A stretch of DNA of 64,000 bases from Pseudobdellovibrionaceae bacterium (lineage in GTDB: Bacteria > Bdellovibrionota > Bdellovibrionia > Bdellovibrionales > Bdellovibrionaceae), in NCBI GenBank assembly GCA_030158485.1, contig JAOASS010000016.1:1-64000 (forward strand), given 5' to 3'. The position numbers were made by a program, and so were the translations under genes. Below, in pieces: positions 1,318 through 14,707 of this stretch (the stretch's first letter is position 1; each line of letters begins with the position of its first letter). The notes under the pieces are model-generated. The model saw only the letters and a list, made by a program, of their open reading frames with translations, was not told the DNA's origin and searched no databases.

Positions 1318-1420
1318 CAAGACTTCAGCTGACGTAAATGTTTGGTCTAGATGCGGTTTCAACTCTTGGACTTTATTTATTAAATTGAACATTCTAAAAT
1401 AAAGTTACAGGGAAGTGAAA

Positions 1421-2122
1421 ATGGCAGAAATAAGACAAACTGTTTTAATAGTAGATGATGAATCCTACATCCGGGAATTCATTGCCCAAATTCTATCAGA
1501 ATCTTTTCGTATTATTTTTGCCAGAAATGGAGATGAGGCTACAGAAATGGCTAGATCTGTTAAGCCAGGGATAATTGTTTTGGATATTTTGATGCCAGGC
1601 CAAGATGGGATTGAGACATGTAGAGCAATTCGGCAGCATCCTGAAACAAAAGACATACCTGTTTTAATGCTTACTGCGGTCAATGAGCCTGAACAAAGAG
1701 TAAGAGCATTTAAAGCGGGCGCGGACGACTACTTGGCTAAACCTTTCCTTCCAGAGGAATTATTTGCCCGAATTAATCGCAAGCTTGAAAGAGTATCAAC
1801 ACCTAAGGTTGCGAATGGCAATAGCTTGACCCTCGGAAATCTTAAACTTGAATTCGATAATCTTTCATTAGAAATTGATGGTGCCTGTCATGAGCTCGGG
1901 CCTGTCGAGTTTAAAATATTGAACCTCTTGATTAAAAGACGTGGTGACTTGGTTTCTAGGCAAGAGCTCAATGATTACATATGGGGTCAGGCTCTTCCCT
2001 CCGAAAGAGCCCTTGATCCTCACATTACTTCACTGCGAAAAAAGCTTCGAACTTCTCAAGGTGAACTCAAAACTGTGTACGGAAAAGGCTATAGTATTAT
2101 TCTAAAAGATATGGAGTTTTGA
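1421..2122 (+). CDS. OmpR/PhoB-family response regulator
   Basis: 233 residues. The receiver domain occupies about 1-120 with the acidic pocket VDDE, phospho-acceptor Asp55 in VLDILMPG, and the conserved Lys in YLAKPF. A winged-helix DNA-binding domain follows at about 135-230 (LGPVEFKILNLLIKRRGDLVSRQELNDYIWG...RALDPHITSLRKKLR...KTVYGKGYSI). ATG 1421 is chosen over GTG 1415 because AGGGAAG (1409-1415) is correctly spaced for the ATG and overlaps the GTG. The downstream PAS kinase is the probable partner. Its open frame overlaps the end of this gene in the +1 frame. Confidence 0.93.
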   Translation: MAEIRQTVLIVDDESYIREFIAQILSESFRIIFARNGDEATEMARSVKPGIIVLDILMPGQDGIETCRAIRQHPETKDIPVLMLTAVNEPEQRVRAFKAGADDYLAKPFLPEELFARINRKLERVSTPKVANGNSLTLGNLKLEFDNLSLEIDGACHELGPVEFKILNLLIKRRGDLVSRQELNDYIWGQALPSERALDPHITSLRKKLRTSQGELKTVYGKGYSIILKDMEF

Positions 2123-2189
2123 GATCGAATCTCAAAACTCAACCATTTTATTAGACACGCGGTTAAAAAATAGGGTCGCAGATGATTTT

Positions 2190-3734
2190 TTGTTCGCGGT
2201 AACATTTAATCAGGCGGCAGTTGGAATGTCGCACGTTTCGCTTAGCGGTGAATGGCTGTTAGTTAATCAGAAATTTTGCGATATCGTTGGTTATTCAAAA
2301 GAAGAACTTCTTAAATTAACTTGTCAGGAGATAACCCATCCAGACGACTTTAATATAGATCTTGAGTACATTGATCAAATAATGCGTGGTAAAATTCAGA
2401 CTTACTCAATAGAAAAACGATATCTCAAAAAAAGCGGATTGTATGTTTGGATTAATCTTACTGTTTCTCTTATTAAATCAACGGCAGATGAGCCACTCTT
2501 TTTTCTAGCTGTTATCGAAGATATTCACCAGAAAAAAAATATCGAAGAAAAACTTCTTCGCATTTCCAGCGAAATAAATCATGCTTTTGAGCAAAGAACG
2601 ATAGCACTTAAACAAGCCAGCCAGTCTCTTGAGTACGAAATAAAAGAGCGTCAGCGAGCAGAAAAAACACGGCATAGTTTTTTTGAAATTTCGAGTGAAC
2701 TCATGGCTATTTTCAGTAGCGACGGAGTCATTAAAGAAGCAAACCCAGCCTTCATCGCACATATGGGTTATTCTGAAGACGAATTAAAATCAAAACGTTT
2801 TATTGAGTTTATTCATCCTGATGATTTGCTTCGGACAAAAAGTACGGGTCTCGAATTTAGGCAAATCGGCCACATATCCAACTTCGAAAATCGTTATATT
2901 TGTAAAGATGGAAAAGTCATAGTGCTATCTTGGTGTGCAACTCTGGCGTCAGGTGATGACTTTATATATGCAACAGCCCGAGACAAAACAGAAATCAGGC
3001 AGCGCGAACTTGAGCTTGCTGAGCAAAAAATGAAAATTGCGGCAAATTCAAAAATGAATGCACTTGGGAAAATGGCCGCTGGAATTGCGCATGAAATTAA
3101 TAATCCACTGACTGTTGTATATGGTCAGGTCAACTACCTGAAGCGCAATCTAAAAAACGATAATCTCGATAAAGCTAAAGTAATTAGTATCTGTGATTCT
3201 ATAAGTGTCATGTGTAGTCGTATTGTTGAAATAATTAACGGACTTCGCACTTTCTCCAGAGATGGAAGTAGTGACCCATTAGAGTTTTGCTCTTTGAATA
3301 AAATCGTATTAGAGACTCTCGCCTTTTGCGAGGGTAAAATGAGATCTCAACAAATTGAACTTATAGTTGATAAAATTCCAAATGATTGTGAAGTCTATTG
3401 CAGGCCGACACAACTCTCCCAAGTTTTACTTAACCTGCTTAACAATGCAAAAGACGCTGTATCTGTTGTAGATAAAAAAATCATTCGGATCGAACTCGTG
3501 AACGAAAATAATATGATAGGCCTTGCCGTGATTGATAGCGGGGTTGGTATTCCATTAGAGCAAAGAGCTAATTTGTTCCAACCATTCTTTACCACCAAAG
3601 AAGTAGGGAAGGGAACGGGACTCGGGTTAAGCATTTCAAAGGGAATAATTGATTCTCAAGGGGGCATAATTTACTTAGATCAAACTTGTGCAGATACAAA
3701 ATTTGTTTTTACTTTGCCATGTGTGGAGAAATAA
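2190..3734 (+). CDS. PAS-PAS sensor histidine kinase
   Basis: 514 residues, no membrane segment, so a cytoplasmic sensor. PAS 1 is at about 5-115, a coiled linker at 115-160, PAS 2 at 163-275, and HisKA with His301 in AAGIAHEINNPL. The HATPase_c domain has the N box NLLNNAKDAV, the G1 box DSGVGIP and the G2 box GKGTGLGLSISKGI. It probably phosphorylates the regulator just upstream. The start is uncertain: TTG 2190 is the only ordinary start codon before the PAS domain, with no good ribosome site, and the frame stays open upstream into the regulator gene. The 3' end overlaps the convergent receiver gene by 26 bp. Confidence 0.88.
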   Translation: MFAVTFNQAAVGMSHVSLSGEWLLVNQKFCDIVGYSKEELLKLTCQEITHPDDFNIDLEYIDQIMRGKIQTYSIEKRYLKKSGLYVWINLTVSLIKSTADEPLFFLAVIEDIHQKKNIEEKLLRISSEINHAFEQRTIALKQASQSLEYEIKERQRAEKTRHSFFEISSELMAIFSSDGVIKEANPAFIAHMGYSEDELKSKRFIEFIHPDDLLRTKSTGLEFRQIGHISNFENRYICKDGKVIVLSWCATLASGDDFIYATARDKTEIRQRELELAEQKMKIAANSKMNALGKMAAGIAHEINNPLTVVYGQVNYLKRNLKNDNLDKAKVISICDSISVMCSRIVEIINGLRTFSRDGSSDPLEFCSLNKIVLETLAFCEGKMRSQQIELIVDKIPNDCEVYCRPTQLSQVLLNLLNNAKDAVSVVDKKIIRIELVNENNMIGLAVIDSGVGIPLEQRANLFQPFFTTKEVGKGTGLGLSISKGIIDSQGGIIYLDQTCADTKFVFTLPCVEK

Positions 3735-4104
3735 TTTTTTCATTTCTAGCAATAGCCATTTTGACTGCTTCAACAAGTTCGTCAGGTAAGAAGGGTTTTT
3801 GTATGACTTTAAAGACTCCTACCGAGCGCGCAGCAGATTCGGAAATATCACCAAATCCCGTCATAAATAGAATGGGCGGTTTATTTTCTTTTAAATTAAA
3901 AAGAGCATGAGCCAGCTCTATTCCGTTACCGCCAGGCATACAAACATCCGAAAGCACACAATCTAAACTTTGGCGCTTAATAATTTCTAAAGCCTCTTTT
4001 CCATTTCGAGCTTCAATAACCTTGAATTTTTCCATTTCAAAAAAATCTCGAATGATTTCTCGGATAGCGACTTCATCATCTACAACCAATATTATTTTTT
4101 CCAT
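3709..4104 (-). CDS. Single-domain response regulator (CheY-like receiver)
   Basis: 131 residues, receiver domain only: VVDDE acidic pair, phospho-acceptor Asp53 in LSDVCMPGG, the Thr/Ser position in LFMTGFG, and the Lys in IQKPFLPDEL. With no output domain it probably acts by protein interaction or in a phosphorelay. It follows the MASE1 kinase with nine bases between, so that kinase is the likely partner. ATG 4104 is preferred to GTG 4110, because AGGGGG lies five bases before the ATG and would overlap the GTG. Its 3' end overlaps the convergent PAS kinase. Confidence 0.9.
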   Translation of the reverse strand: MEKIILVVDDEVAIREIIRDFFEMEKFKVIEARNGKEALEIIKRQSLDCVLSDVCMPGGNGIELAHALFNLKENKPPILFMTGFGDISESAARSVGVFKVIQKPFLPDELVEAVKMAIARNEKIISPHMAK

Positions 4105-4113
4105 AGACACCCC

Positions 4114-7110
4114 CTAAGGCATTACCGTTTCAATGGGTTGTAGCCGCGGTAACTCGACTACAAATGTTGTTTGAACTTTTGACGTATCTAAGTAAAGTTG
4201 ACCGTTGTGCCGTTCAACAATTCCCTTAGAGATACTAAGACCCAGCCCTGTTCCTTTGCCAATCTCTTTTGTCGTGAAAAAGGGATCAAATATTTTAGAT
4301 TGTATCCCAGGCTCAATCCCGGGACCAGAATCTATAACAGAAATTTTTATTATATTTATATCATGTGAAACCTCAATTTTGACCCATCTATTCTGCAGTC
4401 CTGTCGTGATATCAAAAGAATTATTGAGTAGGTTTAGTAAAACTTGAGATATTTGTTCCGTTCGCCCCCAGAAGCAGAGGTCTGCTTTTATCTCTTCGTG
4501 TGTGATAAGTTTTATTTCATGATGAAAGAAGCGCTCACGGCAAAGTTCAAATGTATTTTCAAGAGTATTTTTGACAAGTGCTTTTTCAAAGGTATCAGAG
4601 GATGTTTCACGTGCATATGATCTGAGGCCTTGAACAATTTTTGCAATTCTTTGTATTGTTGAAGTCATCTGTTTAATGCTTATTTTTACTTTTGTGATAT
4701 CGAAATCTTTGTCGATTATTTTTTCTAGATAAAGGGCTCTGCCTTGAATAATCGCAAGTGGATTATTGATTTCGTGTGCCATTCCGGAGGCCATTTCCCC
4801 TAAGGAAGACATGCGAGAAGATGTTAAAAGAGCCATTTGATTTCGATGCAATTCAGTAATATCTTGCACGGTTCCAAAGTAACCTGATACCAAATTATTT
4901 TCGTCTTTGAGCGAAATTGCTTGTCCTGTCACATGGGTGACGGTTCCATCTGGTTTGACGAATCGATAATTGCAAGTGAATGTTTTGCCATTTAAAAGAT
5001 CTTGCCATTTAGAATTCACGATTGAGAGATCTTCGATATGTAAAGCTTTGTGCCAACCTTTATTAGTGGCCGCTTCCGGAGTCAGTCCTGTCATGCGGCA
5101 CCAAGTCGGATTGACATAGGTACAATTACCAATTTTATCAGTCAGAAAAATGCCGACTGGAGATGTTTCAGTTAGTGCCTGCCACATTCTTCGGCGCTCA
5201 TTTACTTCTTGAGTCATTTCATCAGCTATTTGCTGTGCTCGAATTGATAAGTTTTGAAGAGAGGAAAGAAGAATGGCTAAAAATAATGAAAAAAGGGTTC
5301 CAAAAAATCCAATCCAAGATGACACAAAACTTACCGAAGACTCAAATTCTTTTCCTCTCTTCCAAAAAAATTCAAGAGATTTTCCAACGAGTGAGACTTT
5401 GCTTACAGTTCCTGCGGGTCCTTCCGACCAACCAATGGATGTGTATAAACTTTCAGATTTTCTAAGGTGATATTTGGTAAAGGCTTTAAAAACTATCTCG
5501 TTGGCTGTAGATAATGTTGCCGATTCGATGAATTTTTCAAAAATCACAGGAGCATAGATAAATCCAATATGAGCTTTTCTGCGCCTTTCAACTGTATCAG
5601 TTAAGGCTCTACTTTTATAAAGTGGGACGTAGATAAGAAATCCATTTTCTGAAATTTGATTTTGCACAAGTTGAACTTCGTTTGTAACTGAAGGTTTTCC
5701 GCTATCTCGAGCATTAATTGCAGCTTCATAGCGATTTTTTTCAGACGAAACATTTAATCCTATCGCCAAATGATTTTTACTCAAGGGCTCGACGTAAGTA
5801 ACAATAAAATTGTCATCTGGTTTGATGACTTGTCTGCTTAATGCCAAATTAGGAACATCATGCCACGGCTTGACTGGCTGGTAGCTCAAAATGTGGTGGG
5901 TTTCATTTTGAAAGCGCTTTCGAATTGATGACGAAAAAATGACCCCAACACCCTCAATTCCTGGATATTGATTTGTTGATAGCAGCTGATTAGCAAAACG
6001 ATGCCATTCATCTTGTGACACATGCTCTGAAGCATTAAAGAAGCTAACGCCACTTTCTAGAGCCCGAACATAGTCGAGCATTCGGGCCTCTATGGCTTCT
6101 TTTGTCTGATTCACTTTTGTGAGAAAGCGAGTCTCGTCTTTTGATGCTGCTGATGTATAAGAAAAGTAAAAAGTCATACCAGCAAGTACCCAGCCGAAGA
6201 GCAGTGCCATTGTGGGCTTGAAGTGAAGCCCTTCTTGTTTAAGACTTCCTATGCCAACTGCAGTAAGTCCAAGACCGCCAAGAAAGATTTGGAGATGAAC
6301 AAGGCTTTCATTCAAGAGAACTTCCGCGAAAGGTCCTTGACCTTCAATTGTTTGCCAAACGGAGTAGATGCAGATCGCCAAAGAAGTCAGATAGACCCAG
6401 GCTGAATCAAACCAACGACCTGCGAGCAGAATGGATAAAAATAATAAAAATAAAAACGGTTTTCCTGGTTCAAAAGAGAAGATGAACTGGCCTAAAAAAA
6501 TTGTGGCAAGAAAAAGAATCAGAAGTTTTGGTAACTGTACAATTCTGACTTTAAAACAGTTAAATCCAAACAGCTTAATCTTAAGTGCGATTGGTAAGAT
6601 GAAAAGTGCTCCGAGAAGATCTCCAATCCACCATGTTATCCAACTGTTAATAATGAGTTTAGTTGAAATAGTCGAAGTAATCCAGAGAGCAGTCGTGCCA
6701 ATTGTGGCACTAATAGAAGTCGCAACTACTAGTGCCAGTATTCCAAAAATAGCCTTTGAGTGAATTCCGTATCGACTTTGTATGGGTGTCATTCGATTAA
6801 ATGCCAGTACAAAAAAAAGTGCTTCGAGACAATTTCCAAGAGCAATAGTCAGAGCGGCAGACCAGTACAGGCCAGTTTCAAAATTTGATAGGAAAGCTCC
6901 GACAAAAATTCCGATTGCCATCTTTGGACCGAATAAAAAAATGAGACTCATTGCAATGCCAGTTGCTGGCCAAACGGGAGAGGCTTGCTTATTGATAGTT
7001 GCAACTTCTAGTCCTAGACGAGCAGCAAAGTAGTAAATGGCAAAACCCATAAAAAGAGTAGTTAAGGTTTTAAAACTTTTTTTTAAGAAATTTGTATTGA
7101 GTTCGTTCAT
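4114..7110 (-). CDS. MASE1-CHASE-PAS sensor histidine kinase
   Basis: 998 residues. A multi-pass MASE1 module comes first (about residues 15-300; KQASPVWPATGIAMSLIF is typical), then a transmembrane segment. A CHASE-like periplasmic sensor lies at about 345-560 (YPGIEGVGVIF) and another membrane helix near 610-630. A PAS domain follows at about 650-765 (TSPVGIFLTDKIGNCTYVNPTW), then HisKA (EMASGMAHEINNPLAIIQG) and HATPase_c (NLLNNSFDI, DSGPGIEPG, GKGTGLGLSISKGI). MASE1 is an integral membrane sensory domain; CHASE domains bind small extracellular ligands. The ligand here is unknown. It forms an operon with the receiver gene downstream. Confidence 0.92.
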   Translation of the reverse strand: MNELNTNFLKKSFKTLTTLFMGFAIYYFAARLGLEVATINKQASPVWPATGIAMSLIFLFGPKMAIGIFVGAFLSNFETGLYWSAALTIALGNCLEALFFVLAFNRMTPIQSRYGIHSKAIFGILALVVATSISATIGTTALWITSTISTKLIINSWITWWIGDLLGALFILPIALKIKLFGFNCFKVRIVQLPKLLILFLATIFLGQFIFSFEPGKPFLFLLFLSILLAGRWFDSAWVYLTSLAICIYSVWQTIEGQGPFAEVLLNESLVHLQIFLGGLGLTAVGIGSLKQEGLHFKPTMALLFGWVLAGMTFYFSYTSAASKDETRFLTKVNQTKEAIEARMLDYVRALESGVSFFNASEHVSQDEWHRFANQLLSTNQYPGIEGVGVIFSSSIRKRFQNETHHILSYQPVKPWHDVPNLALSRQVIKPDDNFIVTYVEPLSKNHLAIGLNVSSEKNRYEAAINARDSGKPSVTNEVQLVQNQISENGFLIYVPLYKSRALTDTVERRRKAHIGFIYAPVIFEKFIESATLSTANEIVFKAFTKYHLRKSESLYTSIGWSEGPAGTVSKVSLVGKSLEFFWKRGKEFESSVSFVSSWIGFFGTLFSLFLAILLSSLQNLSIRAQQIADEMTQEVNERRRMWQALTETSPVGIFLTDKIGNCTYVNPTWCRMTGLTPEAATNKGWHKALHIEDLSIVNSKWQDLLNGKTFTCNYRFVKPDGTVTHVTGQAISLKDENNLVSGYFGTVQDITELHRNQMALLTSSRMSSLGEMASGMAHEINNPLAIIQGRALYLEKIIDKDFDITKVKISIKQMTSTIQRIAKIVQGLRSYARETSSDTFEKALVKNTLENTFELCRERFFHHEIKLITHEEIKADLCFWGRTEQISQVLLNLLNNSFDITTGLQNRWVKIEVSHDINIIKISVIDSGPGIEPGIQSKIFDPFFTTKEIGKGTGLGLSISKGIVERHNGQLYLDTSKVQTTFVVELPRLQPIETVMP

Positions 7111-7438: not shown

Positions 7439-8959
7439 ATGAAAATCTTGATCACGATTAATTTTCTTGTCACGATATTAACTGCGATTTCACGAGCGGA
7501 CGTCGGCATCAACGAAAAATTTCGAATGATGATGGACCAGGCGGTAAATGAACAAAAGCTTGGGAACTGCAAAGTTGCTTCAAAGCTTTTTAAAAAAGTT
7601 CATGCAAAATCACAAATATTTAAAGCAGAGGCCTTTACAAGATGGGTCACTTGTTTGCGCGACAGCAAACAGTGGGACGAAGCTATTCATGTTTTGTCAT
7701 CAGAGATACGTGAAATACCGTTTACAGGAGAGTATAGAGTTTGGTTGTCTGAAGTCTACTTTTCAACTGAAAATTATCAAGCATCACTAGATGAGATTCA
7801 ATATGCCGAGAAAATTCTTGGAACTGAAGAGTCTATACTGAATGTAAAATCTAAGGCACAACAAAAACTTGGAAAACATGAAGATGCCGTGTTGACGCTT
7901 AATCAATATATTCAGAAGTATCCAAAATCATATTCCGCCCTGGCAACTAGAAGTTATTCATATGCTCAACTTAATCAGCTTGATAAAGCTTTTGCTGATC
8001 TTTATGCAGCCTACGTCTTGAGACCTTTTAACGAAGAAATTATTACGTCTCTTACAAAAGTAGCGTTGTCTCTTGAAAGTCATGGCGATGTTAAAACTTA
8101 TGGTCAGAAATGTATCGAACAGTTTCCTCAGAATCTTTCTTGTCTCATATCTCTCGGAAAATCGGCATTTGAAACTCAGGATTATCTCAAAGCAATCAAG
8201 TTTCTTGAAGCTGTTCTAGCAATCGATTCTTCTGACATACAGACCCGTCTTCTTTATGCGGAATCTTTGTCTATGAGTGGAAAAAATTCTGAAGCTGACT
8301 TACAATACGCTCAAATTTTTCGGCAAAAGCCTGACTACGAACCTGCAATGAGAAGTTGGTCAAGCTTTCTTAGAAAACGTCAAGATATAGAGATTCTTGG
8401 CGAGCGTCTAAAAGAATTCAATTTGCGTGATCCCAAAAGCGTATGGGCAGCCATTGAGCTCGCAAACTTGCTTCGACTTGTTGGAAAAAATGATGAAGCA
8501 CTCGCTACGGTAAAAAAAGTTATCAATGCGAGCCGTAGTGATTTCGCTAGATTACACTATGCTTATTTACTAAGTACTGTTGAAAAGTTCGGCGATGCTG
8601 GAGATATCATTGAAGATATTGAGGACAAGACTTTAGAGAAGTCTTTTCATCTAGCACTGACCTACTTCAAAAGAAACAAGCTGTCTGATGCGACTCAGTA
8701 TTGGCATCAAGTTAAGCCAGTATCGCCGCTTTACTTTCAGTCGCAAGTCAATATTGCTTTAATTTATGAACAGCAAGGTCAGATTGAAAAAACTAAAGAA
8801 ATTTTATCTTCACTAACTGTACCTACTGAATACCGGTCTCTTGTTGATAAAAAGATCTTATCCTTATCTTCTAGTGAAGAACGAAAGCCTGCGACTTCGC
8901 AAACGGCATCAAAAAATGAAATATCTTACTTTCTTGAATGGAAACTACCTGCTTTATGA
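7439..8959 (+). CDS. Exported TPR-repeat protein
   Basis: 506 residues starting with a signal-peptide-like segment (MKILITINFLVTILTAISRA). The rest is an array of degenerate tetratricopeptide repeats from about residue 25 to 480. Recognisable turns include KYPKSYSALATRSYSYAQLNQLDKAFADLYAAYVLRP, ETQDYLKAIKFLEAVLAIDSS and RLVGKNDEALATVKKVINAS. TPR solenoids are protein-protein scaffolds, and this one probably acts in the periplasm. ATG 7439 has GGAGAG five bases upstream. It is the first gene of a tightly packed five-gene set, and its stop overlaps the next start by four bases. It may hold the barrels and lipoproteins together; that is inference. Confidence 0.82.
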   Translation: MKILITINFLVTILTAISRADVGINEKFRMMMDQAVNEQKLGNCKVASKLFKKVHAKSQIFKAEAFTRWVTCLRDSKQWDEAIHVLSSEIREIPFTGEYRVWLSEVYFSTENYQASLDEIQYAEKILGTEESILNVKSKAQQKLGKHEDAVLTLNQYIQKYPKSYSALATRSYSYAQLNQLDKAFADLYAAYVLRPFNEEIITSLTKVALSLESHGDVKTYGQKCIEQFPQNLSCLISLGKSAFETQDYLKAIKFLEAVLAIDSSDIQTRLLYAESLSMSGKNSEADLQYAQIFRQKPDYEPAMRSWSSFLRKRQDIEILGERLKEFNLRDPKSVWAAIELANLLRLVGKNDEALATVKKVINASRSDFARLHYAYLLSTVEKFGDAGDIIEDIEDKTLEKSFHLALTYFKRNKLSDATQYWHQVKPVSPLYFQSQVNIALIYEQQGQIEKTKEILSSLTVPTEYRSLVDKKILSLSSSEERKPATSQTASKNEISYFLEWKLPAL

Positions 8960-9708
8960 AAAAAATAAAAACCACAATCTTGTCGCTCATTATTTGCCAG
9001 ACATTAAATGCTCAGTCCGCTGAAGATGGCCGCTATGTTTCGATTTATTCAGGATATAGTCTACTGTCTTCAAATCTTTCAGGCACTGGTTTTAATGCAG
9101 ATTTACCTCAAAAAGGTGGACCACTTTATGGTTTTGATCTGGCCTATCAAAGCGCGGATACTTCAGCTCTGTATATTTTGAAGTATAGTTCAATTCATAC
9201 AGAACAAAGTTCTCCAACTGGAATTACTCCATCAAAGATGAGGATCGACCGCGAGGACTATTCGTTTATAGGATCATTTACCCCGTGGGATTCTGGCGCG
9301 CTCGAAAACTTACGGCTTGGAATTGGATACGGTTTTTTACAAAGTGCAGGAACAAACACTTCACCAAATAACGTTTTAACTAAGCAGCGTAGTCAAGGGG
9401 CCCTGTTCTTGTTGTCTTTTAATTCTAAGCTTCCTTCTGATTGGTCAGTCTTATCTGAGCTCCTCATTTATCTACCTCATCAAGTGAAAGAGTCGAATCA
9501 GGTGACGGGTTATAACCCTCAGTTCATTAGTACAGAATTGAAGCTAGTTGCTGAGTATATTTTTACTGATAATTCGATTTTATTTGGCGGTGTTGGTTAT
9601 CGATCGGATCAGGTTTCTTACAATGGTTCGGTCAGTCGCGGTGTCACTGATGGCAAAGACAAAAGGACATTATTGTCTTTTCCCGTTGGTATTAAGTTTG
9701 GTTATTAA
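8956..9708 (+). CDS. Outer-membrane beta-barrel protein
   Basis: 250 residues. ATG 8956 (MKKIKTTILSLIICQTLNAQS) gives a clean signal peptide and an ATGA overlap with the TPR gene, so it is preferred to the in-frame ATG 8938. The mature part alternates polar and hydrophobic residues in strand-length segments (ALYILKYSSIH, LRLGIGYGFLQ, STELKLVAEYIF, SILFGGVGYRSDQVSY). It ends in the aromatic SFPVGIKFGY, a typical BAM recognition end. No named family is recognised. Confidence 0.75.
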   Translation: MKKIKTTILSLIICQTLNAQSAEDGRYVSIYSGYSLLSSNLSGTGFNADLPQKGGPLYGFDLAYQSADTSALYILKYSSIHTEQSSPTGITPSKMRIDREDYSFIGSFTPWDSGALENLRLGIGYGFLQSAGTNTSPNNVLTKQRSQGALFLLSFNSKLPSDWSVLSELLIYLPHQVKESNQVTGYNPQFISTELKLVAEYIFTDNSILFGGVGYRSDQVSYNGSVSRGVTDGKDKRTLLSFPVGIKFGY

Positions 9709-9720
9709 AGTGAGGACTAT

Positions 9721-12285
9721 ATGAAAACATACAAATTGAGTTTATCGAAAATCGTATTCACGCTCGCAGTTATCACAGGATGTGATAAAGATGCGACTGT
9801 TGCCAATCTCTCGTCGGATTCGGATGTCAGTAGTGTTGGCTCAACTGCCAACACATGCTCTGCTCCGAGCACTTCGGTTATTTGGAGTGGTGAAAGATCG
9901 GCTGCTGCAACTGTGGCAGCGCGTGGCACCTGGTCAGATATCAAAATTATGCCAAGCTCTACTTATCCTGGATCTGTGTATGCAGACGTAGGTTGCTCTT
10001 GCATAAAATATACTTATTGGAATGGTACGGAATGGAAAACAGAAGTCATTTCGTCGGGAAGCTCAACATCTTTCACCTATATTCGCTTGGCCTACTTAAG
10101 TACTGGAATTCCAGTTGCCGTATGGTCAAACTCGACTACGACACTTCAATTAGCTATTCGTAATACAGAAAGTCTTTCGACCGAGGGAAGTTGGGCGATC
10201 ACAAATCTCGATACAGCTGGAACAGCTATTAGGTCTGTGGAGTTAAAAATCAACCCATCAGATCAAGTAGCCGTTCTGTATGCTCGAAATACAGCCGGCA
10301 CGGCTCACCTTATTTTATGTACATCAAATTGTAGTTCTGGTTCTAATTACTCGAGTCCTTCCACAACACTTGGTACTGTTGGAACTAATCCCAACTCATT
10401 CGGCCTGGGATGGTGCTATTCGGGAACAAGCTATTATCCTGTTATTGCATTAACAGGAGGAACAAACTCAAGCTTTGGAATTTGTCGTCAATCGACACTT
10501 TCGAATTGTTTAACAGGTATCGCGAGTTGGGCTGGTGGAGCGCTTCAGACACTTACTGGCACAGGTACAAATCGAGCTTCAGTTCAACTTGCCATTGATG
10601 ATTCGACAGCAGACGCTGCAGTCAGGTCAGTTGCCCAAAATGGGTCAGCTCTGGCTTATCATCAATCTTCTTTTGCAGGTGGTGGATGTTCTGCTGGTAC
10701 AATCGGAGCGATTGCTTCTGGTGGCACTATTTCGGGAACAACTGCTAACAGCGGAAATGCTTATCTTGAGCTTCAGCGTGTGACTGGTAATAACTATCAT
10801 ATTGTTGCTAACGAAGGTACGGCGAGCGTTAGGTACTACAACACGACGACAGGAAGTTTTACTACGTGGAATGCTTCGGGAACTGTTGCAACTACGACAT
10901 TAGCAGCAGCTGGGGCAATTCGAGGTGGTCTTGCGGTGGATGTAACTCTTGGCCAAGCCTACACAACTTTTGCGAGAACAGCAGCGGTGTCTCCATTTCC
11001 TGGGAACTTAATGTTTGGATGGGTTGAGAACACAACAGTGACATCAAATAACGCGACAGCCGCATTTTACGAAACTCCACTCACACTTGATGGACAAGTT
11101 CAGACATTAACAAATCAGGTACCAAATCTTTCTGTTGCTGCAACATCAGCAGGAATTCCGGCTACGGCATTCGTCGACTATTCATCTGGTTCCGCAACTG
11201 TTGGAAGTCTGAAGTATGCAATTCGAACTGGCTCCTTGTCCTCTGACAATTGGTCGGTAAGAACTTTACCAGCGGTTTCGCAACCACAAGCCGTTTCATT
11301 GGCTTTTGATAGCGACAACAAACCTTGGATCGGTTTTTTTGATCAACAAAGCCTGCGATTTTTATTGGCCACAAATACTGCTACCGATGGAACTGGAATT
11401 TGGTCTACTTATTATTTTCCATTCAGAACTGCTGTAACCGCAGCAACAGCTCCTGCCTACCACAGTGTTGCAATTGCAATGGATAATTCATCTTCATCAA
11501 TTCTTCCTGTGATGATTGTGGGAGTGGCAAATCACGGGACTGTGGCAAACACAGGAATTTGGTCTGCAAGGCTCAACCCTACAACTGGAGATTGGTCAAG
11601 CGTCACGCAGATTGATTCTACCAATTTGGCAAATTCAAATTCGAATTTAACGGCTGATTTTGATGGAAGTGGAAATATAGTCGCGGCTTATTTTGATCGT
11701 GGAGCAAACAACAGAATTGAATATGCACAAAGTACGAACGGTGGTGTCACCTGGTCGACCCCGACTCATGTGACTTTACTCACGGGAATTGGAATGGGGG
11801 CTAAAATAAAAATAAATCCGTCGAATACAAGGCCCGCAATTACTTATTTTGATCGGGCAAGCAATCGAGTTTATTACTCGTATTGTACCACTGCTCTTGC
11901 GAGTTGTACGACACTTTCCAATTGGTCTTATTCATATCCAGAAAATCTAACCGCAGGAGTCAGTGGTCTTGCAGCAACCTCTGATGGACTTCTTGGAACG
12001 GGATTATCTTTTACAAGTACGGGTACTGCTTATGCTGTTTACCCAATCGGTGCTGGTAATACGGGGCTCTTAGCCTTCAATGATAATAGTTCAGGAAGCT
12101 TTCCGTTGTCTTCAACTTTACTTGCTGGAAAAAACTCTAACTTAACTTTGAACACAGCTATTTCGGCAATTAACTTTGGGCAGCCGGGATGGAATGTTGA
12201 TTCGGTTCGAACCTCAACAGGCTCGCTACATTCCCTGTATATAGGTCCTGGCAATTGGCTATATGGGACTAGTTGTGGAGATTGA
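9721..12285 (+). CDS. Large lipoprotein with Asp-box/BNR-like repeats
   Basis: 854 residues. The lipoprotein signal ends in VITGC with the lipid Cys at about 21, then a Ser/Asp-rich linker. The body is rich in Ser, Thr, Gly and Asn and made of repeating units of the form xxFDxxxxPxIxxFDxxxxxLxxA (AFDSDNKPWIGFFDQQSLRFLLA, DFDGSGNIVAAYFDRGANNRIEYA). One unit carries STNGGVTW, an Asp-box-like motif. This suggests one or more beta-propellers, as in sialidases and surface lectins, but I see no catalytic set. The Cys-rich patches (LILCTSNCSS, YSYCTTALASCTTLSNW) may form disulphides. It starts 12 bp after the barrel gene behind GTGAGGA. Possible roles are adhesion or glycan binding; neither is shown. 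Confidence 0.7.
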   Translation: MKTYKLSLSKIVFTLAVITGCDKDATVANLSSDSDVSSVGSTANTCSAPSTSVIWSGERSAAATVAARGTWSDIKIMPSSTYPGSVYADVGCSCIKYTYWNGTEWKTEVISSGSSTSFTYIRLAYLSTGIPVAVWSNSTTTLQLAIRNTESLSTEGSWAITNLDTAGTAIRSVELKINPSDQVAVLYARNTAGTAHLILCTSNCSSGSNYSSPSTTLGTVGTNPNSFGLGWCYSGTSYYPVIALTGGTNSSFGICRQSTLSNCLTGIASWAGGALQTLTGTGTNRASVQLAIDDSTADAAVRSVAQNGSALAYHQSSFAGGGCSAGTIGAIASGGTISGTTANSGNAYLELQRVTGNNYHIVANEGTASVRYYNTTTGSFTTWNASGTVATTTLAAAGAIRGGLAVDVTLGQAYTTFARTAAVSPFPGNLMFGWVENTTVTSNNATAAFYETPLTLDGQVQTLTNQVPNLSVAATSAGIPATAFVDYSSGSATVGSLKYAIRTGSLSSDNWSVRTLPAVSQPQAVSLAFDSDNKPWIGFFDQQSLRFLLATNTATDGTGIWSTYYFPFRTAVTAATAPAYHSVAIAMDNSSSSILPVMIVGVANHGTVANTGIWSARLNPTTGDWSSVTQIDSTNLANSNSNLTADFDGSGNIVAAYFDRGANNRIEYAQSTNGGVTWSTPTHVTLLTGIGMGAKIKINPSNTRPAITYFDRASNRVYYSYCTTALASCTTLSNWSYSYPENLTAGVSGLAATSDGLLGTGLSFTSTGTAYAVYPIGAGNTGLLAFNDNSSGSFPLSSTLLAGKNSNLTLNTAISAINFGQPGWNVDSVRTSTGSLHSLYIGPGNWLYGTSCGD

Positions 12286-12322
12286 ATATTCGCGAACACA
12301 ATGCGCGAGCTCGAATCTGATT

Positions 12323-13312
12323 ATGAACAATAAACCAAATAGGTTTTTTCACAAGCTTGTCAGATCTTCAGTTGCGATATCAGTGTTCGTACTTCTTTTT
12401 TCCGGATGTTCTTCTGAAAAACCATTTGATGGGACAAACGAGTCGTTTTTATCCGCTTATTCTGGTTACACAGTTGTCACTTCAATATCAACTGACCCTG
12501 CAACCGGCCCAGGAATTGTGTCATTGTTTGATTCTAGCGGAAACTTTATTGAGACGCTGAGGGATTTATTTCCAAGTTCGGAGTGGTCTTCCGGATCTAC
12601 ATTTGTTTCACCGGATAAAGTCATTATTGGAATTGCCAATGGTGCAAGAATGGAGCAACTCAATTTAGCAACCCAATCGAGTACCAATTTTACAACGGCT
12701 CGTATGAATGGAGCACCGAATAGATCTCTCGTACAGGATACGATTGATGGTACAATCTATTTGGTTGAGCAAAATGGAGCGTCTAGTACAATTGAAAAGT
12801 ATGATTCCGATGGAAATCCAATTGGAGCACCCTTTATTGTCACATCAGTTGGAAGTTGCGTACTCAACAATCCAACGAGCATAGCCTTTATTAGCACAAA
12901 TCAAAACGTCGCTGTGATTCAAGTTAATCGACTAAATATTTATTCTAAAACAGGTAGTTGCGTGGCAACGGTAACGGCGGCGCCTTTTAGTAGTAATACA
13001 CCCTATGCTTTAGCTTATCATGCTTTGACTGATAAACTTATCGTCGCTTTTGCAGGAAACCATTCAATATATGCTTGCACAACGTTGGGAACAGGGTGCG
13101 TTTTAATTTATTTGAGCTCATCCATTATCAATACACCAAGAAGCTTGGCGGTGGACTCATCTGGATCTATTTACGTCGGAAGTAGTGGAACTGATACGGT
13201 CGAAAAGCTTTTATGGGAAGGCTCAGGTTCAGCAACCCGAGTTGGGACAAGTTCATTCATCGGTCCAGGAATTTACTCTCAGAATCCAACTTCAATTATG
13301 GTAATTCCTTAG
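12323..13312 (+). CDS. Lipoprotein with NHL/YncE-like beta-propeller
   Basis: 329 residues from ATG 12323. An upstream in-frame start at 12263 would put 20 charged residues before the signal and is rejected. The signal peptide ends VLLFSGCSS, a good lipobox. The body repeats propeller blades such as SIAFISTNQNVAVIQVNRLNIYSKTGSCVATV and SLAVDSSGSIYVGSSGTDTVEKL, close to NHL or SMP-30-like blades. Ribosome site is weak. The stop is followed immediately by the next start, so the genes are coupled. Function unknown; likely an outer-membrane-anchored binding or scaffold protein working with its neighbours. Confidence 0.7.
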   Translation: MNNKPNRFFHKLVRSSVAISVFVLLFSGCSSEKPFDGTNESFLSAYSGYTVVTSISTDPATGPGIVSLFDSSGNFIETLRDLFPSSEWSSGSTFVSPDKVIIGIANGARMEQLNLATQSSTNFTTARMNGAPNRSLVQDTIDGTIYLVEQNGASSTIEKYDSDGNPIGAPFIVTSVGSCVLNNPTSIAFISTNQNVAVIQVNRLNIYSKTGSCVATVTAAPFSSNTPYALAYHALTDKLIVAFAGNHSIYACTTLGTGCVLIYLSSSIINTPRSLAVDSSGSIYVGSSGTDTVEKLLWEGSGSATRVGTSSFIGPGIYSQNPTSIMVIP

Positions 13313-13927
13313 GTGAAGTCTCTTTTTCTTCTTCTTTTTTTATACATTTCTTCTGCTTCTGGAAGGCCGAAGCTTGAATATTCAGAATCAAGTGGTCCTA
13401 TTTCAATTGGCGTTGGTGTTGGTTACGCAGGCTTTCGAATTTTAAATTCTGATGGAAGTTGGGCTGCGTATAATGGCGTAACTTACTCAACTGCATTAGA
13501 AATCAAACTTTTCCGGTCACCCATGGGCTCTTCTTCATTTTCAGTTTTTGGTGATTATACTTTTGCCAAGGCAGATGAGGCCAAGACGTCTTCATCAAAA
13601 TTAGAACACAGTTCAACATCATTCGGAGCACGTTTTTATCCCTTTGATTTCATATTTGTTGGCCTTGGATATGGACAAGGTAACGAAAAAATATCTGATA
13701 CAGCTAAAATAAATTTGAAGCACAGTTTTACAAAAATGAGCCTGGGATTTGAGTTCGGTTTAGAAGACAGCTTGTCGCTTGGCCTGCAAGCACATTATCG
13801 TGTCGGTCCCATCACAAGAAAAGAAAATTCAAGTCTCAACTTTAATTCATCATTTGAATCAACAGAGGGCTTCATCTATCTGAATTGGTCCCCAAAGGTT
13901 CTGAACATAACTTCCCAAAGACGATAA
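13313..13927 (+). CDS. Small outer-membrane beta-barrel protein
   Basis: 204 residues starting at GTG 13313, directly after the previous stop. The signal peptide is MKSLFLLLFLYISSASG. The mature part looks like an eight-stranded barrel (SIGVGVGYAGFRILN, SFSVFGDYTFAKA, FIFVGLGYGQGNEKI, KMSLGFEFGLEDSLSLGLQAHYRVG, GFIYLNWSP). A short polar tail (KVLNITSQRR) follows the last strand, so it does not end in the classic C-terminal aromatic. It is the last gene of the envelope cluster. Confidence 0.7.
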   Translation: MKSLFLLLFLYISSASGRPKLEYSESSGPISIGVGVGYAGFRILNSDGSWAAYNGVTYSTALEIKLFRSPMGSSSFSVFGDYTFAKADEAKTSSSKLEHSSTSFGARFYPFDFIFVGLGYGQGNEKISDTAKINLKHSFTKMSLGFEFGLEDSLSLGLQAHYRVGPITRKENSSLNFNSSFESTEGFIYLNWSPKVLNITSQRR

Positions 13928-13978: not shown

Positions 13979-14707
13979 TTAAAACTTAGCAACCAGTGCA
14001 GTAGAAAATGCTGTGTCTTCTTTTTTCTCTCCTGCTACGAGGGTTTCGTTATGGAATTTTACCAGGTAAGCCAACTTGAGTGAAAAATTTGAATTTAGCA
14101 TGACCGTCATCGAGGGTTCATAATTCACAAGATACGCTTTTGATTTTGTAAAATTAGGAAGATATTCAATCCAAAATTTTCCACTGACGGAATCGTTTAG
14201 CTTTCTTGAGTATTCAGTGTACAGACGGCCGTAGCTTTCATATTTTGTAGCGGCACCAACTGCCGAAAGAGTTTTTGTGTAACGTGAGCCGGCTTCAGAG
14301 AAAAGACTTTCAGTATCTGATTTGATGATAACGTACTTTCCACCTAAATCGGTGTTGTCCCTTTGCGTATACCCTGCATAGCGGTCACTTTCAGCGCCGT
14401 GTTGCGTGAACAAGGACCATAAGTCCGAAAGAATTCTTTCATATCGAAGAGCCGCTTCCCATTGTTTAGCAGATTCAACACCAGCAGTTTTTGTTTCTAA
14501 AAATCGAGCTGTTGAAGTAATGGCATTTTGGTCAAAATTATAAACTGTCTTTTCTTTTGCGTTATAGCTTTCTGAATCGGTATTACCACTGACGGTCACG
14601 ATGCCCAATTCAGATTCATGTGCCCACTTAGGCTTTTCTTGGGATTGGGCCGCGATTGAAAAAGTGATAAAAAACAAAACAGTCAAAAATTGAGTCATCA
14701 TTTTCAT
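13979..14707 (-). CDS. DUF481 (YdiY-like) outer-membrane protein
   Basis: 242 residues with a signal peptide (MKMMTQFLTVLFFITFSIAAQS). The DUF481 barrel pattern is clear: WAHESELGIVTVSGNTDSESYNAKEKTVYNF near the start, then ALRYERILSDLWSLFTQHGAESDRYAGYTQRDNTDLGGKY. It ends in strand FSTALVAKF. DUF481 proteins are predicted outer-membrane barrels of unknown function. AAGGAAAT lies about eight bases before ATG 14707. It is monocistronic and convergent with the envelope operon. Confidence 0.85.
   Translation of the reverse strand: MKMMTQFLTVLFFITFSIAAQSQEKPKWAHESELGIVTVSGNTDSESYNAKEKTVYNFDQNAITSTARFLETKTAGVESAKQWEAALRYERILSDLWSLFTQHGAESDRYAGYTQRDNTDLGGKYVIIKSDTESLFSEAGSRYTKTLSAVGAATKYESYGRLYTEYSRKLNDSVSGKFWIEYLPNFTKSKAYLVNYEPSMTVMLNSNFSLKLAYLVKFHNETLVAGEKKEDTAFSTALVAKF

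Follow-up and report, generated by a model that had tools for sequence, protein, structure and literature searches.

Among the outer-membrane barrels closest in fold to the one described here are OpcA, an adhesin, and the omptins, proteases whose active site needs Asp/His residues. A periplasmic TPR part combined with an outer-membrane barrel is also found in the polysaccharide exporters PgaA, BcsC and AlgK-AlgE, and the barrel of AlgE has 18 strands. Slam, the exporter of type XI secretion (DUF560, SlipAM), is a TPR-barrel protein that is encoded beside its own surface lipoproteins; its barrel has 14 strands, and that of PgaA has 16 (PMC8406197). The window, which is the whole 64,000-nt stretch of DNA that was analysed, contains a gene set that resembles each of these systems in part. 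A description of the set P1-P5 was not found in the papers or family libraries searched, in agreement with the first-pass annotation, which knew of no described system with this combination, and PDB sequence searches gave no significant match.

Five co-directional ORFs were confirmed at 7439-13927, as had been claimed, and the same holds for the TPR repeats in P1. P3 and P4, which had been called lipoproteins, contain lipoboxes. Tight stop-start junctions had been proposed at three of the four borders. Two of them were borne out, the ATGA overlap of P1 and P2 and the direct TAG-GTG junction of P4 and P5, while P2/P3 and P3/P4 are separated by gaps of 12 nt and 37 nt. The latter value applies to the P4 start at 12323, the ATG from which a signal peptide of lipoprotein type results; in its longest version the P4 ORF begins at 12263 and overlaps P3. 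No terminator-like site was found in the P3/P4 gap by a promoter and terminator scan that was at chance level as a whole.

Table 1. Position, strand and supporting evidence of the features in and beside the P1-P5 gene set.
Feature	Position	Strand	Evidence
Two-component cluster, candidate regulator of module A	1415..7110	mixed	Pfam; synteny in L023, L024
OmpR-type regulator	1415-2122	+	Pfam
PAS kinase	2190-3734	+	Pfam
Receiver	3709-4110	-	Pfam
MASE1-CHASE-PAS kinase	4114-7110	-	Pfam
P1: exported TPR-repeat protein, 506 aa, putative module A scaffold	7439..8959	+	Pfam TPR E 1.4e-15
ATGA overlap, P1 stop / P2 start	8956..8959	+	kept in relatives
P2: predicted outer-membrane beta-barrel, 10 strands, 250 aa, OpcA/OmpT-like fold	8956..9708	+	AF2 model, OpcA match, conservation mapping
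P3: lipoprotein, 854 aa, predicted BNR-like multi-blade propeller	9721..12285	+	lipobox, Asp-box, internal repeats, BNR_2/BNR_4 in family members
Single strict Asp-box STNGGVTW in P3 (residues 671-678)	11731..11754	+	
P4: lipoprotein, 329 aa, putative NHL-like small propeller, module B	12323..13312	+	lipobox C29, internal repeats, orthologue NHL/Lactonase-type matches
P5: 204 aa, small outer-membrane barrel-like, GTG start, module B	13313..13927	+	pairing with P4 in other genomes

The five genes are two modules, A (P1-P2-P3) and B (P4-P5), rather than a single fixed operon. The order P1-P2-P3 recurred in 11 other loci (L023-L026, L031-L036 and L040); L038 has it too, with an additional gene. 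The ATGA overlap was present in 10 of the 12 two-gene P1-P2 junctions, window included, and a search with the P2 profile revealed that TPR and barrel are fused into one gene in L093/L094, beside a 909-aa lipoprotein of the P3 family. P3 was found in 17 of the 369 genomes of the phylum and a sister branch of it in 8; the homology of the two was supported by profile comparison with 99.3% probability over 709 columns, with negative reversed controls. P3 lacked an adjoining P1/P2 in four genomes (L027, L028, L029, L037), and no P3 or P4 match was present in either of the two same-genus genomes, one of which is 67% complete. The order of module A is thus kept phylum-wide, but patchily. P4-P5 downstream of P3 was not seen in any relative examined, so that the exact five-gene order was seen in the window only; P4-P5 formed a pair of their own in at least 7 other genomes and were located elsewhere in most relatives. 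The single five-gene operon of the first-pass annotation was therefore too strong a claim: gene neighbourhoods in relatives keep P1-P2-P3 together and place P4-P5 apart, which for these two genes is the outcome that the annotation itself had named as refuting. The dedicated, undescribed surface machine that it proposed was supported for the first three genes, with their order, ATGA overlap, TPR-barrel fusion and LysM in relatives, and not for all five as a unit. L031 (1495-7630) contains a tandem of P3-family genes of which the second is broken into two ORFs; a P5-like gene lies between the two and runs in the other direction.

Alignment of the P1 proteins revealed a C-terminal LysM in L032-L036, L039, L040 and L096, and Pfam LysM scored above the cut-off in all five orthologues tested (L033, L035, L036, L040 and L096; E 5e-14 to 1e-4). 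Several of these LysM-type proteins also contained lipoboxes. Three loci, L095, L097 and L038, have a separate gene between TPR and barrel whose product contains a LysM-like stretch; Pfam support for it was weak in L095 (E 0.044) and absent in the other two. The P1 of the window had no Pfam LysM match and the LysM region was missing from it in the alignment. Its clade appears to have lost this part of P1.

Two small barrels had been proposed. For P2 this agreed with an AF2 model of moderate confidence (pLDDT 65.5, pTM 0.66) that contained 10 strands and was built, like the other structure models, from a shallow alignment of three sequences, the window and two related loci. The best fold match of the model was OpcA, over the whole barrel (Z 21.9, rmsd 2.6, 211 residues aligned in a chain of 225), followed by a Legionella Dot/Icm porin and the omptins (Z 17-18). 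Sequence identity was 15-17% with OpcA and about 10% with the omptins. P2 differs from both in that its gene is coupled to TPR and lipoprotein genes. The invariant residues of P2 were G45, E179, G185, G224, R228 and P243; there was no conserved Asp-His set among them, nor any invariant Asp or His, and an omptin protease was dropped from consideration on this ground. The outward loops of outer-membrane proteins are usually their most variable part. With both ends taken as periplasmic, as they are in other outer-membrane barrels with an even number of strands, P2 was most conserved in its outward loops (2.44 bits vs 1.38 in the periplasmic turns; p 2.5e-5 for outward vs periplasmic ends). The simple reading of this mapping is that the loops dock a constant partner outside the cell. 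P5, the other proposed barrel, was judged from sequence character only and is barrel-like. Beside groESL, a P2-like barrel also forms the C-terminus of proteins of about 530-560 aa (L101 6042-7637, L103 5544-7157, L104 4919-6523), and weak P2-profile matches of this size were present in many genomes of the phylum. They were left out of the P1-P2 fusions because their N-termini are non-TPR.

P3 contains a lipobox with GC at residue 21, and the residue following the Cys is Asp. In E. coli an Asp at this position leads to inner-membrane retention, a rule that is unproven for this bacterium. Where Asp-box-like repeats had been claimed we found internal repeats and one strict Asp-box, which was present at the equivalent position in several homologues. 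BNR matches were detected in a few members of the family (BNR_2 E 4.2e-5, BNR_4 E 0.00096), a feature of BNR/sialidase-type propellers, whereas P3 itself had no Pfam match, BNR included. The AF2 model of P3 from the three sequences reached a pLDDT of 33, and the BNR-like fold thus rests on weak profiles and repeats; P3 probably forms one or two propellers. It was the slowest-evolving protein of module A, with a dN of 0.16-0.23 compared to 0.32-0.55 for P2 and 0.48-0.72 for P1 (dS was saturated or not computable).

P4 showed strong internal repeats, and its orthologues gave weak NHL- and Lactonase-type Pfam matches. P4-like lipoproteins were encoded near module A in L024, L026, L033, L095 and L100, and also near a second locus of G038. 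Among the 23 P4-like genes in the 14 genomes with a P3-family gene, seven were within 10 kb of the latter, against 0.23 expected; the P value of 5e-9 overstates the enrichment, because the profile includes some neighbours and related genomes were counted, and with only the four genes from a profile not built from neighbours it was 9e-5. From this recurrence a functional link of P4 with module A is likely. P5-like genes, some of them weaker matches, adjoin module A or P3 in four loci (L028, L031, L033 and L096). L024 (16458-17800) and L026 (16369-17576) encode two more small exported proteins (192-256 aa), common to two genera, in the stretch that separates module A from a divergent P4-like lipoprotein. 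One had a weak OMP_b-brl match, and profile comparison revealed no relation of them to P2 or P5. In the window, the gene of a DUF481 outer-membrane protein (13979-14707, minus strand) converges on P5.

We give about an even chance to module A being a complex of the outer membrane, anchored to peptidoglycan in its ancestral state, that keeps a propeller lipoprotein at the cell surface for ligand binding or adhesion. P2 would be a narrow 10-strand barrel in the outer membrane whose conserved outward loops hold P3 on the cell surface, and P1 would be the periplasmic TPR scaffold beneath it. In what may be the ancestral form, the LysM of P1, or a separate LysM-like protein, would tie the complex to peptidoglycan and make it load bearing; in other lineages TPR and barrel are fused. 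P3 might bind a conserved ligand, a glycan or surface polymer, leading to adhesion or substrate capture. P4-P5 would be a second pair of propeller lipoprotein and barrel that was recruited to the side of module A and probably acts together with it. In favour of this complex we counted the trio in 11 loci, the fusion, LysM, the ATGA overlap, the likeness of the barrel to the adhesin OpcA, the loop conservation, the slow evolution of P3 and the proximity of P4; against it, the Asp after the P3 Cys, P3 alone in four genomes, the three-sequence model of P2, the LysM-less P1 of the window and the patchy distribution.

The main rival is a split Slam-like exporter, in which P1 and P2 would carry P3 through the outer membrane and present it on the outside. 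The layout is alike, a TPR protein and a barrel beside a lipoprotein gene, and the fused TPR-barrel gene that adjoins a lipoprotein gene in L093 has the very arrangement of Slam. Weak TPR_Slam matches were obtained for P1 (E 0.0036) and for the fused protein (E 0.01), but these scores do not reach the curated cut-off, and cross-matches among TPRs are common. No domain corresponding to the C-terminal 8-strand barrel of Slam-type cargo was recognised in P3 by Pfam. Neither P2, searched up to E 0.1, nor the fused protein, searched up to E 0.5, gave a match to SlipAM (PF04575), and membership of Slam by sequence was rejected for this reason. Moreover P2 was modelled with 10 strands instead of 14, the LysM of the relatives is foreign to Slam, and the conservation of P2 lies at the outer rim of a barrel that would be narrow for a polypeptide. 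Taken together we consider a Slam-like exporter unlikely. That P1 and P2 form a two-piece exporter of a new class, anchored to peptidoglycan, which both moves and holds surface lipoproteins with a barrel unrelated to Slam, seems rather improbable to us. Export of a polysaccharide through TPR and barrel, as in PgaA, BcsC and AlgK-AlgE, would explain the TPR-barrel pairing and the weak TPR matches to the BcsC and PgaA models; the barrel is however too small with 10 strands and no glycosyltransferase or synthase gene was recognised beside the trio, so this explanation was dropped as hardly credible.

A further alternative is a device for sensing or uptake, where P3 and P4 would bind a substrate outside, P2 and P5 would pass small molecules or a signal inwards and the two-component cluster would be in control. 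This cluster has MASE1/CHASE sensing domains in the window. L023 has counterparts of all four genes next to module A (53-76% identity). L024 has a smaller kinase-regulator part there, with the first regulator at 72% and the kinase at 58% identity, and a receiver at 39%, so that the synteny extends over three genera. The cluster was however absent beside module A in L025, L026 and the distant loci, and genes for transport, TonB receptors or catabolism were not recognised beside the trio of the window. Ten-strand barrels of the OpcA/OmpT type are also not known to serve as general pores. A role in sensing or uptake is in our opinion quite improbable.

With P3 in 17 of the 369 genomes and its sister branch in 8, module A is no general requirement for predation. 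How lipoproteins reach the cell surface and are retained there outside Proteobacteria and Bacteroidota is largely an open question. Surface contacts are essential to predatory bacteria, and the conserved set of TPR(-LysM) protein, barrel and propeller lipoprotein, which we propose to be a surface-holding complex, bears on how lipoproteins are displayed.
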